Below, in pieces: positions 5,292-26,654 of a stretch of 64,000 nt of DNA. The translations under genes were made by a program, and so were the position numbers. Numbering within the stretch: the stretch's first letter is position 1; every line of letters starts with the position of its first letter. The stretch lies in assembly GCA_002215645.1 (NCBI GenBank), contig NGFI01000004.1, forward strand, positions 1 to 64,000. Direction: 5' to 3'. The stretch is from Gemmatimonadetes bacterium 2013_60CM_65_52 (GTDB lineage Bacteria; Gemmatimonadota; Gemmatimonadetes; Gemmatimonadales; Gemmatimonadaceae). Under the pieces are notes generated by a model. It was not told where the DNA came from and did not search any database. It worked only from the letters and a program-made list of their open reading frames with translations.

Positions 5292-7220
<1,929 letters not shown>

Positions 7221-22201: not shown

Positions 22202-23149
22202 ATGGCCAAGTTGAATTCAACCGAATGGATCTGGCGCGACGGAGAGTTCATCCGTTGGCAGGACGCGACAGTCCACGTGCTCTCGCATTCGATGCAGTTC
22301 GGCTCCTCGGCGTTCGAGGGGATCCGCTGCTACAGCACGCCGCGCGGGCCGGCGATCTTCCGTCTCGAGGATCACCTCCAGCGGCTCCTGAACTCGTGCC
22401 GCATGTATCGCATGGAAATGCGGTATACGGTGGACGAGCTGGTTGCGGCGAACTGCGAGCTGGTCGAGCGCAACGGAATGGATGCCTGCTATCTCCGGCC
22501 CATGGTGATTCGCGGCTATGGCGCGGCGGGCATGGTGCCGTTCGACAGCCCGGTGGAGGTCTACCTCCCGTGCTGGCCGTGGGGCGCGTATCTCGGCGAC
22601 CATGCCATGGAGAACGGCGCTGATACGTGCGTGTCGAGCTGGCATCGCATGGCGCCGAACACGACACCCTCCATGGCCAAGATCGCTGGCAACTACCTCG
22701 GCGGTCAGCTCATCAAGATGGAGGCGCTCGCGAACGGATTTGACGAGGCCATCGCGCTTGGCCCCGACGGCATGATCAGCGAGGGCTCCGGGCAGAACGT
22801 GTTCATCGTGCATCGTGGCACGGTGTACACGACGCCGCTCAACGGCACGCTGCTGCCGGGCATCACGCGGGACAGCATCCTGACGCTCGCACGCGACGCC
22901 GGGCTCGAAGTGAAGGAAATGCCCCTCCAGCGCGACTTCCTGTACGCCGCGGACGAGGTGTTCCTCACCGGAACGGCGTCGGAGGTGACGCCGGTCCGCA
23001 GCGTGGACAAGCTCACGATCGGTGCCGGCCGCATGGGTGAAGTCACGAGGATGTTGCAGCGGACATTCCTCGACGTGGCGCACGGCCGCGCCGATGACAA
23101 GTACCACTGGCTCTGTCACGTGCGCGCCGAGCGCGCGGTCGCAACGTGA
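22202..23149 (+). CDS. ilvE: Branched-chain-amino-acid aminotransferase (copy 1)
   Basis: This 315-residue fold-type IV PLP enzyme has FGSSAFEGIRCYSTPRGPA, SMAKIAGNYL with the PLP lysine K160, and ISEGSGQNVFIV. The N-terminal YxxGxFxGxR-like motif is the FEGIRCY segment. It interconverts Leu/Ile/Val with their keto acids, with 2-oxoglutarate as partner. An AGAGGA site is 5-6 nt from the ATG. It stands alone, 58 nt after the M20 peptidase. A second paralogue at 62188-63171 sits beside ilvC, so this copy may serve catabolism or another amino acid. Confidence 0.92.
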   Translation: MAKLNSTEWIWRDGEFIRWQDATVHVLSHSMQFGSSAFEGIRCYSTPRGPAIFRLEDHLQRLLNSCRMYRMEMRYTVDELVAANCELVERNGMDACYLRPMVIRGYGAAGMVPFDSPVEVYLPCWPWGAYLGDHAMENGADTCVSSWHRMAPNTTPSMAKIAGNYLGGQLIKMEALANGFDEAIALGPDGMISEGSGQNVFIVHRGTVYTTPLNGTLLPGITRDSILTLARDAGLEVKEMPLQRDFLYAADEVFLTGTASEVTPVRSVDKLTIGAGRMGEVTRMLQRTFLDVAHGRADDKYHWLCHVRAERAVAT

Positions 23150-23215: not shown

Positions 23216-23244
23216 TTGTCTGCCAGTGCCGACGCCCTTAGACT
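23216..23244 (+). promoter_or_regulatory. Sigma-70-like promoter of the cysteine operon leader
   Basis: TTGTCT at 23216-23221 and TAGACT at 23239-23244 are separated by exactly 17 nt. Transcription would begin near 23251, about 32 nt before the leader-peptide ATG. Confidence 0.6.
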
Positions 23245-23282
23245 GGGCTACGAACCTTTTGTCGCTCTCTGGATTCGTTCTC

Positions 23283-23402
23283 ATGCTCTCTCGCGCTGCC
23301 AACGGCTCGACCATGCTCCGCAATTGCGCGCACCAGTACTGTGCGTGCGCCTGCGCATGTATGTGTGCCTGCATGCAGGTGAGTCGAGGGCGGCCGGTAT
23401 GA
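23283..23402 (+). CDS. Cysteine-rich leader peptide of the cysteine operon
   Basis: This is a 39-residue frame, or 29 residues if the inner ATG at 23313 is used. Residues 15-30 read CAHQYCACACACMCAC, holding all seven Cys codons (TGC/TGT at 23325-23372), and the stop is TGA at 23400-23402. It is too short and too biased to be a folded protein. It lies between a promoter and a rho-independent terminator ahead of OsmC, sulfite reductase and cysteine synthase genes. That is the expected arrangement for a leader that senses charged tRNA-Cys. Poly-Cys leader peptides upstream of sulfur genes are known in mycobacteria; their use here is inferred. No strong Shine-Dalgarno site was found. Confidence 0.75.
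   Translation: MLSRAANGSTMLRNCAHQYCACACACMCACMQVSRGRPV
23390..23397 (+). promoter_or_regulatory. Candidate antiterminator segment
   Basis: GCGGCCGG here is the exact complement of CCGGCCGC at 23448-23455, which is the ascending arm of the terminator. It lies over the last codons of the leader peptide: a ribosome at the stop codon would cover it, whereas one stalled at the Cys codons (last at 23370) would leave it free. Confidence 0.6.
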
Positions 23403-23448
23403 GACAGCGACACTGATTCGCATCTCGCAACCACAAGGGAATCGATCC

Positions 23449-23479
23449 CGGCCGCTCTCACCGAGCGGCCGTTTTTTTT
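23449..23479 (+). terminator. Attenuator terminator of the cysteine operon
   Basis: CGGCCGCTC pairs perfectly with GAGCGGCCG over 9 bp around a TCACC loop and is followed directly by eight T. It lies 29 nt before the OsmC start codon, inside the transcript, so it must be read through for the operon to be expressed. Confidence 0.92.
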
Positions 23480-23507
23480 GTCCACAGATCGCCATACAGG
23501 AGAAGTC

Positions 23508-24026
23508 ATGAGCGTCACCGTGGGCGGCGAGGAAACCGCCGGCACATCATCGAGCCATGCGACCACCCAGACCATGGTTCGTGCGACCTGGCGCGGAGGC
23601 CGAAAGTTCGAGGTGGGCGGATCGAGCGGGGCGACGATCGTGATCGATGGCGATCGCGTCGCCGGCACCGGCCCGGTGGACACGCTCCTCGGCGCCTTGG
23701 CCGCATGCGCTGGCCCCGAGATCATCGACTATCTCGCGAAGCGGCGGACACCGGTGGCGAGCCTCGACATCGTGATCGACGCCGAACGCCGGGGGAGTGC
23801 TCCGCGGCGCGTGCTCGGCGCGCGGCTCGAGATCCGCATGGAAGGGACGGGCATCGACCCTGCGCACGCCACGCGCGCAATCGATCTCGCCTTTCGAAAG
23901 TATTGCTCGGTGTCGGCGTCGCTGGCGCCGGACATCCTCATCGACACGCAGCTCGTACTGAACGGGGAGTCGCACGAGGCATATCGCGTGGATACCCATT
24001 CCGAGGTCGGGAACGACAATGACTGA
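23508..24026 (+). CDS. OsmC family protein
   Basis: This 172-residue protein has the OsmC fold pattern and two conserved cysteines: C67 in LAACAGPEI and C133 in KYCSVSASL. In OsmC/Ohr enzymes this pair reduces organic hydroperoxides through a thiol. An AGGAGAAG site sits 5 nt before the ATG. It is the first structural gene after the cysteine attenuator and overlaps the sulfite reductase start by 8 nt. A role linked to sulfur metabolism, for instance handling thiol or persulfide intermediates, is suggested by context only. Confidence 0.88.
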   Translation: MSVTVGGEETAGTSSSHATTQTMVRATWRGGRKFEVGGSSGATIVIDGDRVAGTGPVDTLLGALAACAGPEIIDYLAKRRTPVASLDIVIDAERRGSAPRRVLGARLEIRMEGTGIDPAHATRAIDLAFRKYCSVSASLAPDILIDTQLVLNGESHEAYRVDTHSEVGNDND

Positions 24027-25680
24027 CGCGACAGCACCAAAGGAAACCGCCGCGCAACGCGTCGAGCGAATCAAGCGTGAAAAGGCGCCGTGGTCCATCA
24101 TGGATGACATCCGGCGCTATGCGAAGGACGGGTTTGCCGCGATTCCTGCCGACGATCTCGCCGTACGCTTTCGCGCGTGGGGTCTTTACACACAGGGCGA
24201 CGGCGGTGGAACGCGCGGCGAAGAGATGCCGTTCTTCATGATGCGGGTACGTACACCCAACGGCGTGCTCACGTCGAAGATGGTACGCACGATCGCCGAT
24301 CTGTCCGACCGCTACGCCCGAAGCAGCATCGACATCACCAATCGGCAGAATTTTCAGCTGCACTGGCTCCGCATCGAGGACGTGCCGGCGGTGTGGGATG
24401 CGCTCGAGACGGTTGGGTGGGGGAGCCAGGGCTCGTGCGGCGACAACACACGCACGGTCACCGGTTGTCCCGTTGCGGGCGTGGCGCACGAGGAGCTGAT
24501 CGACGCCTCTCCCATCGCGCTCCAGGTGGATCGCTTTCTCAACGGCAATCCCGACTACGCCAACCTGCCGCGCAAGTTCAAGATCACCATTACCGGATGC
24601 GCACATTGGTGCACCTATCCGGAGATCAACGACATCGGCGTCACCGCCGTGCGGCGGAGTGATGGCGTCGTCGGCTTTCACGCACGGGTCGGAGGAGGCC
24701 TTTCGACGCGGCCACACCTGGCGCTGTTGCTGCCAGCCTTCATCCATCCGCATCAAGTGCCGGACGTCGTGAACGCCATCGCCGGGATCTTCCGCGATTC
24801 CGACGAGCTTCGCCTGAACCGCACGAAAGCGCGCATGAAGTTTCTGTTTCTGAATCACGGCTGGACCACCGAAGCGTTCCTGCAAGAGGTGGAGCGACGC
24901 ATTGGCTACACGCTCGACGACGCCGCGGAGGAGAATCCGCCGGAGGGCCAATATCGCGACCACATCGGCGTGCATCCGCAGCGTCAGGAAGGGCTCAGTT
25001 ACGTCGGATTCTCCGTGCCCTCCGGCCGGATCACTCCGGAGCAACTGCGCCGGATTTCCGCCATCGCTGAGGAATTCGGAGACGGTACGCTTCGTCTGTC
25101 GGCAACGCAGAACATTCTCGTGCTCAATGTTCCGAACTCGGACGTCGATACGCTGATCAAGGCCGCAAGCGACGCGGGTGTCTGGTTCGGTGCGTCGCCA
25201 TTTCAGCGCGGCACCGTGTCGTGCACGGGCCGAGAATACTGCAAGCTGGCCATCACCGAAACGAAGGTCTTCAGCATCCGGCTGGCGCAGGAGCTCGAGG
25301 ATCGGTTGCCCGGATTCACGCAGTCCATCAAGCTGCACGTCACCGGATGCCCCAACGCGTGTGGTCAACATTCGATCGCCGACATCGGCCTTCAGGGCGT
25401 GATGATCAACGTCGGCGGCACGCAGGTGGAGGGCTTCGACTTCTTCGTTGGCGGCGGTCTCGGCGAGCGGAGCAGCATCGCTCATCGCGTGGGATTCCGG
25501 GCGCCGGCGGATGACGTCCCCGACGCGCTCGAGCAGTTGCTGCGCGAGTTCTCTTCCGGCGCCGAACGCGACGAAACGTTCCGCACGTGGACGACCCGTG
25601 TGGGAGACGCCGCCGTTCGTTCCGTCCTTGCCGGTTCCGTGGCGACGTCCGGCGCACAGCCGTCTCCCAGCGTCGAATGA
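24019..25680 (+). CDS. Ferredoxin-type sulfite/nitrite reductase
   Basis: This 553-residue siroheme protein has two tandem half-repeats. The 4Fe-4S/siroheme ligands are C402 and C408 (SCTGREYC) and C444 and C448 (TGCPNACGQH), fitting C-x5-C...C-x3-C. Earlier degenerate counterparts include TGCAHWC. It carries out the six-electron reduction of sulfite to sulfide, or nitrite to ammonia. Its position between OsmC and cysteine synthase, behind a Cys-sensing leader, argues for sulfite reductase in assimilation. It overlaps both neighbours (8 nt and ATGA). Confidence 0.93.
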   Translation: MTDATAPKETAAQRVERIKREKAPWSIMDDIRRYAKDGFAAIPADDLAVRFRAWGLYTQGDGGGTRGEEMPFFMMRVRTPNGVLTSKMVRTIADLSDRYARSSIDITNRQNFQLHWLRIEDVPAVWDALETVGWGSQGSCGDNTRTVTGCPVAGVAHEELIDASPIALQVDRFLNGNPDYANLPRKFKITITGCAHWCTYPEINDIGVTAVRRSDGVVGFHARVGGGLSTRPHLALLLPAFIHPHQVPDVVNAIAGIFRDSDELRLNRTKARMKFLFLNHGWTTEAFLQEVERRIGYTLDDAAEENPPEGQYRDHIGVHPQRQEGLSYVGFSVPSGRITPEQLRRISAIAEEFGDGTLRLSATQNILVLNVPNSDVDTLIKAASDAGVWFGASPFQRGTVSCTGREYCKLAITETKVFSIRLAQELEDRLPGFTQSIKLHVTGCPNACGQHSIADIGLQGVMINVGGTQVEGFDFFVGGGLGERSSIAHRVGFRAPADDVPDALEQLLREFSSGAERDETFRTWTTRVGDAAVRSVLAGSVATSGAQPSPSVE

Positions 25681-26654
25681 GCGCGCGCACAGAAGCCGGT
25701 GCTGACCGGAGCGTCCACCGACCCGATGGGATCGTGGCGCACGTCGGCCACTCGCCGATGGTCCGGCTCTATCAGGTCGTCGAGCCGGGAATGGCGGAAG
25801 TGTGGGTCAAGCTGGAGGGGATGAACCCCGGCGGATCGATCAAGGATCGCACGGCGCTGGGCATGGTCCTGGACGCCGAGCAACGTGGATTGCTGCAACC
25901 CGGTGGCGTGATCGTGGAGCCGACCTCGGGCAACACGGGCATCGGGCTCGCGCAGATCGCGTCCGCTCGCGGATATCGATTGATTCTGTGTCTCCCTTCG
26001 TCCATGAGCGAGGAGCGCAAGCGCACGCTCGTGGCGTACGGTGCGGAGCTCGTGCTCACGGATCCCGAGCGGCGCATGTTGGCGGCCATCGAGGAAGCCG
26101 AGAAGATCCGTGACGCCATCGGCGCGTGGATGCCGAATCAATTCAGCAATCCCGCCAACGTGCGTGTTCACTACGAGACGACCGGTCCCGAATTGTGGGA
26201 TCAGATGGATCAGCGCATCGATGCGTTCGTCTACGGCTCAGGCACAGGCGGTACGATCAGCGGCGTCGGGCGCTACCTGAAGGAGAGAAATCCCCGCGTG
26301 CTCGTGGTGGCTGTGGAGCCCGCGCGCTCGCCGGTATTGTCCGGTGGCGAGCGCGGGCAGCATCAGTTTCAGGGCATGGGGCCCGGCTTCGTCCCGGACA
26401 ACTTCGATCGCACGGTGGTCGATCGAATCGTGCGCGCGTGGGAGGAGGACGCATTTCCGCTCGCGCGCCAGCTCGCCCGCGACGAGGGACTCTTCGTCGG
26501 CATGTCGAGCGGCGCGATCGTGTGGGCGGCGTTGGAGGTCGCACGAGAGCTGGGGCCGGATGCGCGAGTTGCGTGCATCTCTCCAGATTCCGGAACACGA
26601 TATCTATCGACAGCACTCTTTTCGTCGCCAACGGATCAGACATCGCCACTCTGA
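25677..26654 (+). CDS. cysK: Cysteine synthase (O-acetylserine sulfhydrylase)
   Basis: This 325-residue PLP enzyme of fold type II has the PLP lysine K56 in NPGGSIKDRTA, the phosphate-like loop SGNTG at 85-89, GSGTGGTISG for the cofactor phosphate, and SPDSGTRYLST at the C-terminus. It joins sulfide to O-acetylserine. The start codon at 25677 overlaps the sulfite reductase stop as ATGA, so sulfide production and use are translationally coupled. CysM or a cystathionine beta-synthase-like role cannot be excluded, but the operon favours CysK. Confidence 0.94.
   Translation: MSARTEAGADRSVHRPDGIVAHVGHSPMVRLYQVVEPGMAEVWVKLEGMNPGGSIKDRTALGMVLDAEQRGLLQPGGVIVEPTSGNTGIGLAQIASARGYRLILCLPSSMSEERKRTLVAYGAELVLTDPERRMLAAIEEAEKIRDAIGAWMPNQFSNPANVRVHYETTGPELWDQMDQRIDAFVYGSGTGGTISGVGRYLKERNPRVLVVAVEPARSPVLSGGERGQHQFQGMGPGFVPDNFDRTVVDRIVRAWEEDAFPLARQLARDEGLFVGMSSGAIVWAALEVARELGPDARVACISPDSGTRYLSTALFSSPTDQTSPL

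Follow-up and report, generated by a model that had tools for sequence, protein, structure and literature searches.

What occupies the 358-nt gap between a branched-chain aminotransferase-like (ilvE-like) gene and an operon for an OsmC-family protein, a NirA-type reductase and cysteine synthase in a Gemmatimonadota genome? The gap lies in the window, by which we mean the whole 64,000-nt stretch of contig NGFI01000004.1 analyzed here, from the 4.2-Mb, 14-contig assembly of Gemmatimonadetes bacterium 2013_60CM_65_52; the close relatives of this genome are Gemmatimonadota metagenome-assembled genomes (MAGs), many of them soil derived. An earlier note on this DNA had proposed a cysteine leader peptide followed by a classical attenuator. 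Our analysis leads to the same reading, in that the gap very probably holds a ribosome-mediated transcription attenuator, placed ahead of the OsmC-sulfite reductase (SiR)-cysK operon and responsive to the supply of cysteinyl-tRNA. The operon itself is borne out by Pfam and NCBIfam profiles (Table 1). All NCBIfam matches of the reductase fall below their curated cut-offs, and the name sulfite reductase therefore rests on context, namely cysK in the window and a cysH-like gene, read from the sequence, adjoining in loci L005 and L015 (L and G numbers denote loci and genomes).

The individual parts of the proposed element were all found where the earlier note had placed them. The promoter-like site is a weak one, agreeing with the consensus at 8 of 12 positions, and was not reported by a promoter scan; the nearest relative has TTGATT-16-TAGACT at the equivalent position. 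The 39-codon leader frame carries seven Cys codons, all of which an alternative start at ATG 23313 would retain, and no obvious Shine-Dalgarno sequence lies ahead of the leader ATG in the window. Segment 2, in the final leader codons, is the exact complement of the first eight nucleotides of segment 3, which is common to the antiterminator and to a strong 9-bp terminator hairpin with its run of eight T. An Rfam 15 scan of the window gave zero families above the gathering score, the element region showing weak sub-threshold matches only.

Table 1. Features of the window and of other loci (positions refer to the window unless a locus is named)
Feature	Position	Strand	Basis
Branched-chain aminotransferase-like gene (Aminotran_4), upstream neighbor, outside the element	22202..23149	+	Pfam PF01063
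Promoter-like site TTGTCT-17-TAGACT (TTGTCT 23216-23221, TAGACT 23239-23244)	23216..23244	+	sequence
Leader peptide ORF, 39 codons, MLSRAANGSTMLRNCAHQYCACACACMCACMQVSRGRPV, then stop; seven Cys codons	23283..23402	+	sequence; Cys run kept in relatives
Cys-codon cluster (putative control codons), 3 TGT + 4 TGC	23325..23372	+	codons at 23325, 23340, 23346, 23352, 23358, 23364, 23370
Segment 2, GCGGCCGG, predicted antiterminator 5' arm in final leader codons	23390..23397	+	exact complement of 23448-23455
Hairpin between segments 2 and 3, over leader stop codon, GAGA..GCGA/TCGC..TCTC type	23400..23427	+	folds, sequences
Segment 3, CCGGCCGCTC, common to antiterminator and terminator; CCGGCCGC at 23448-23455	23448..23457	+	sequence, duplexes, folds
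Intrinsic terminator, 9-bp stem (8 G-C) 23449-23471, 5-nt loop, T8 23472-23479	23449..23479	+	sequence scan, folding
OsmC-family protein gene	23508..24026	+	Pfam PF02566
NirA-type nitrite/sulfite reductase gene (SiR by context)	24019..25680	+	PF01077/PF03460; NCBIfam all below curated cut-offs
cysK, cysteine synthase A	25677..26654	+	TIGR01139 above cut-off
Candidate Cys attenuator before 3-mercaptopyruvate sulfurtransferase-like gene, then cysK	L104:1406-1594 (G271)
Candidate Cys attenuator before 3-mercaptopyruvate sulfurtransferase-like gene	L106:1345-1595 (G022)
SAM-II aptamers above gathering threshold	L011:1760-1831; L012:6203-6274 (-); L015:7882-7952; L027:7675-7749; L145:4572-4643; L021:16546-16622		RF00521

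Predicted folds are consistent with two alternative states. Compared with dinucleotide shuffles, the terminator region has a z score of -3.9 and the antiterminator form one of -2.5, and the cognate duplex of segments 2 and 3 beats all 200 shuffles of the leader tail. When a ribosome sits on the Cys codons, the RNA beyond it (from 23383) is predicted to fold into the antiterminator at -36.6 kcal/mol; when it sits at the stop codon, the predicted fold of the remaining RNA (from 23416) is the terminator. Forcing the terminator on the stalled-ribosome RNA gives -33.9 kcal/mol, a gap of only ~3 kcal/mol, and the switch must therefore rest on the order of folding. As long as the second terminator arm (arm 4) has yet to be transcribed, the predicted folds favor the antiterminator even without a ribosome; in the full minimum free energy structure without a ribosome, segment 2 pairs with the upstream leader and the terminator forms.

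Under the mechanism we propose, RNA polymerase would start near 23250 and the short leader ORF would be translated at once. With charged tRNA-Cys in short supply, the ribosome would wait on the Cys codons and segment 2 would be free to pair with segment 3, so that no terminator would form and OsmC-SiR-cysK would be transcribed. With ample cysteine, the ribosome would reach the stop codon at 23400 and mask segment 2, the terminator and its T8 would form, and transcription would end. Sequence and comparison show the ORF, the terminator, two pairings that exclude each other, their conservation and re-pairing between lineages, and the link to sulfur-assimilation genes; translation of the leader ORF, cysteine-dependent stalling and a response of read-through are what we infer from this arrangement.

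Comparison of the regions upstream of OsmC and SiR homologues, the check that the earlier note had suggested, found the Cys codons and the pairing conserved. Fourteen of 179 genomes of the window's family carry a SiR gene, and directly upstream of the SiR operon 13 of these 14 have a short Cys-containing frame and then a terminator. Eleven of the 13 leaders have at least five Cys codons, that of G271 has four and that of G409 three; in L019 there are three Cys codons only, spaced apart. Leader sequences of relatives include GRCGSMCRMEACACMCAIAYPDIMRPGQRQRA (L018) and RACACMCPAIIACCCVAKRPYTRRGRERSS (L020), both running to the stop codon, as well as GACACMCPSISICCCLAKRQ (L026), CCHSALCCAPCCCACPNRGGCG (L025), CSECCRECCCSCCGCC (L016) and ECACACECGCEC (L015). 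Codon differences between relatives in the shared ACACMC stretch fall almost only at third positions, the pattern to be expected if the frame is translated. The leader may be followed first by OsmC, cysH, SiR itself or another gene, and hence the element goes with the pathway and not with any single gene. No convincing leader or terminator was found ahead of the SiR operon of G203 (L027). Relatives that had lost the Cys run and kept the terminator would have spoken against the proposed attenuator; the opposite was seen, with Cys run, terminator and complementarity kept while the arms change, and this comparative pattern supports the proposed choice between stalling for Cys-tRNA and termination.

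The leader tail is complementary to its own terminator arm across lineages although both sequences change. The arm pairs are GCGGCCGG/CCGGCCGC in most lineages, GGGGCGGG/CCCGCCCC in L025, GGCCAGG/CCTGGCC in L016, TCTCCC/GGGAGA in L168 and TCCCCG/CGGGGA in L178, with CTCTGGC/GCCAGAG or CTGGCG/CGCCAG in Acidobacteriota. An antiterminator that shares the terminator 5' arm is re-paired by other sequences in L025, L016, L042, L168 and L178. Because L016, L042 and L025 did not come into register when the antiterminator region was aligned with MAFFT, column-wise pair counts were set aside in favor of duplexes computed locus by locus, shuffles and a swap test. Of 47 loci parsed automatically, 27 had a cognate duplex better than dinucleotide shuffles of the leader tail (p < 0.05), the 20 nonsignificant results being partly due to parsing; combined, the p-values give a Fisher chi2 of 298 with 94 df, which is no true probability since the loci are related. 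Overall, swapping tails separated cognate from non-cognate pairs only moderately (mean rank, 0.23; random, 0.5), as many loci share arms. For unusual arms, the cognate tail ranked 2nd among 46 tails in L016 and L171, 3rd in L042 and L178, 4th in L023 and L168, and 6th in L025, and lower in L151 (8th) and L158 (13th). Segment 2 ends 17 nt ahead of the stop codon in L018 and L021, and masking by a ribosome at the stop codon would therefore be partial there. Small hairpins like that between segments 2 and 3 of the window were seen by eye at the same place in L018, L021, L016 and L042.

The search for SiR also returned Acidobacteriota loci with the same layout but shorter leaders, for example MMSAFYTCCQCCCCCCMCASTGAGRLLT in L032 and VITCCQIKCCSCARKAACCMTLISGQGSFRT in L033, each followed by a stop codon. 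A class-wide search around L033 (Terriglobia) found SiR in 94 of 299 genomes. With a leader defined as at least three Cys in ten codons within 550 nt upstream of SiR, the first 30 loci had one in 26 cases on the sense strand versus none on the other strand, and two of the four misses lie on contigs without upstream sequence. Sixty further loci gave 56 on the sense strand, a few of them in coding sequence or doubtful (L184, L207, L211, L213), versus 6 on the other, for a total of 82 of 90 versus 6 of 90. The distance from segment 2 to the leader stop is near constant in most Terriglobia loci, and many leaders share the conserved ending SGxGxLxT, whose codons spell out segment 2, with TCTGGCG..GGGG pairing to CCC..CGCCAGA. 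Since Gemmatimonadota and Acidobacteriota have different arms and peptides, the element may have either one common ancestor or two origins. A MAG labeled Betaproteobacteria (G465; L048/L148) has a SiR 84% identical to an acidobacterial one and the same leader type; the label is probably a mislabeling or a binning error.

A pattern that describes the arms alone and is blind to cysteine (CGGCCG, gap, CCGGCCGCT, loop, AGCGGCC) was also searched in 394 genomes of the window's class. Seven matches have the attenuator layout (the window, G004, G024, G353, G237, G271 and G022), and a Cys-containing leader frame lies ahead of all seven; the other matches seem to lack a recognizable Cys leader and have the look of coding or repetitive DNA. 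At L104 and L106 the candidate attenuator precedes a sulfurtransferase-like gene, and judging from this layout a second operon would be under the same kind of control.

We weighed three other readings of the element. That an ordinary ilvE terminator happens to follow a random Cys-rich frame is the least probable of them. In the six frames of the window there is one further 16-codon stretch with seven Cys, on the other strand, and TGYNNN repeats are common in the window's own genome (G000), where the 24 matches are fewer than those of the reversed control pattern; no other match in G000 has a clear leader-terminator layout that would mark a second poly-Cys leader. Coincidence does not account for recurrence at the same place, on the sense strand, in 13 of 14 family SiR genomes and in most Terriglobia SiR loci. 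Scarcely more credible is a role for the Cys-rich peptide itself as sensor or product, with the peptide or a metal modulating the terminator. So many Cys residues close together might hold a metal or respond to thiol redox, a role already suggested for the Cys-rich upstream ORFs in copper systems, and OsmC belongs to a thiol-peroxidase family, but the downstream genes are cysteine supply genes and the Cys spacing is not conserved (CACACMC, CCC, CCCC, CSECCREC and CMCMC all occur). The peptide reading also sits poorly with codon choice: TGT, the rarer Cys codon, makes up 54 of 103 Cys codons in Gemmatimonadota leaders (54:49) versus 18 of 110 in the SiR genes of the same loci (18:92; Fisher p = 2.5e-8), an enrichment at the codon level, not the peptide level. 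Under ribosome-mediated attenuation, a slower wobble codon would sharpen the response.

The remaining alternative, also improbable though less so than the other two, is that a Cys-responsive leader acts on translation, instead of or besides termination, with stalling altering access to the OsmC start site. Mycobacterial poly-Cys leaders were reported, according to the citing article, to be Cys responsive through translational attenuation (Canestrari 2020, as cited in PMC13236596), and a stalled ribosome would change downstream structure here too. However, nearly every lineage has a strong intrinsic terminator and T run after the leader, the 5' arm of this terminator partners the leader tail, and in the window the terminator lies before the OsmC start codon, not over it, all of which favors control of transcription.

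The best-known leader-peptide attenuators are those of Proteobacteria and Actinobacteria. The classical trp, his and leu operon attenuators of Enterobacteria combine control codons with an antiterminator that shares an arm with the terminator. The candidate element has the same features, but its signal would be cysteine and its segment 2 lies inside the last leader codons, so that a ribosome near the stop codon could mask it. A Cys attenuator with an intrinsic terminator, the uORFC-8-2 motif, has been predicted before cysS in Rhodobacterales (PMC8632094). It likewise has a short ORF with Cys codons and an intrinsic terminator, with ribosome-mediated attenuation inferred from comparison; it differs in having two tandem Cys codons before the cysteinyl-tRNA synthetase gene of Alphaproteobacteria, whereas the window has seven before OsmC-SiR-cysK, and the Gemmatimonadota and Acidobacteriota loci described here usually have 3 to 10 ahead of operons with SiR, cysH or a sulfurtransferase gene. 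Poly-Cys leaders were predicted in 2005 for cys operons of Mycobacterium and Propionibacterium acnes and for cbs of Bifidobacterium longum; no conserved terminator was found for these actinobacterial leaders, and Rho was suggested (PMC1262725). Like the present loci, they have a short ORF with consecutive or clustered Cys codons ahead of genes for sulfur assimilation; the present loci differ in their strong, conserved intrinsic terminator and predicted antiterminator, and the reported mycobacterial control is translational. Attenuators predicted in Acidobacteria in 2010 were mostly without assigned function (PMC2965389).

The earlier note had suggested that such a leader might be new for this kind of organism. 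In the open-licence literature we found nothing closer for Gemmatimonadota or Acidobacteriota, whether on a Cys attenuator or on a link to SAM-II, and to that extent the suggestion stands; it does not extend to the mechanism, as a Cys attenuator with a terminator (PMC8632094) and actinobacterial poly-Cys leaders (PMC1262725) were already known. Sequence comparison supports the element well as a member of an already known mechanistic kind, new to these organisms as far as that literature goes. As a form of cysteine control it reaches far beyond one genome and seems to be widespread, if so far overlooked. Two abundant soil phyla thereby gain a specific, testable candidate cysteine sensor, with SiR, cysH, cysK and sulfurtransferase genes as its putative regulon.

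Some leaders stand behind a second predicted sensor. In L011, L012 and L015 the Cys leader is immediately preceded by a SAM-II aptamer (RF00521) that scores above the Rfam threshold, and in L016 by one that scores below it (30.5 bits versus 36); in L015 a separate terminator stands between the two, and the Rfam scan found no SAM-II in the window's element. Such tandem loci, those of G004, G007 and G024 among them, would be two-input gates, natural constructs that put a predicted SAM riboswitch and a predicted Cys-tRNA attenuator in series. We lean slightly toward a broader view in which Cys-codon attenuation is the general control of sulfate assimilation in Gemmatimonadota and Acidobacteriota, is stacked directly behind SAM-II in some members of the window's family, where transcription of the operon would require both SAM and cysteinyl-tRNA to be low, and has sister attenuators for sulfurtransferase and probably methionine genes. 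SAM-II, described as alpha-proteobacterial, is found in Gemmatimonadota, where several aptamers adjoin sulfur-assimilation genes. In G203 (L027:7570-8010), the SAM-II aptamer is retained and all that is left of the Cys leader is a handful of scattered Cys codons, with no clear terminator after them, possibly through loss of one of two sensors.

A search for poly-Met repeats gave many matches that look like simple or coding repeats and two loci of interest. At L146:5679-5820 (+; G022:C26, ~309680), a Met-rich leader frame, MRTIMSMTMRMMRMMRMTMRMTMRMTMRMTTASLSRESHGGRRMRG and a stop codon, precedes a hairpin that resembles a terminator and ends in T8; genes similar to metX and to cystathionine gamma-synthase lie downstream, and a SAM-II aptamer (5573-5648) and a terminator lie in front. 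This is probably a methionine attenuator in tandem with a SAM riboswitch, as far as the layout tells. On the minus strand of L241 (G007:C317, ~7056), from the window's genus, a SAM-II-like box and a terminator are followed by a Met-rich frame, MRMPIGMRMCIGRPEGCRPGMALRPGCEERR and a stop codon, and then by GCGGCCGG and a CCGGCCGCTC..GAGGCGGCCG-T7 terminator, all read by eye; this seems to be another candidate Met attenuator, whose arms are those of the Cys attenuator.
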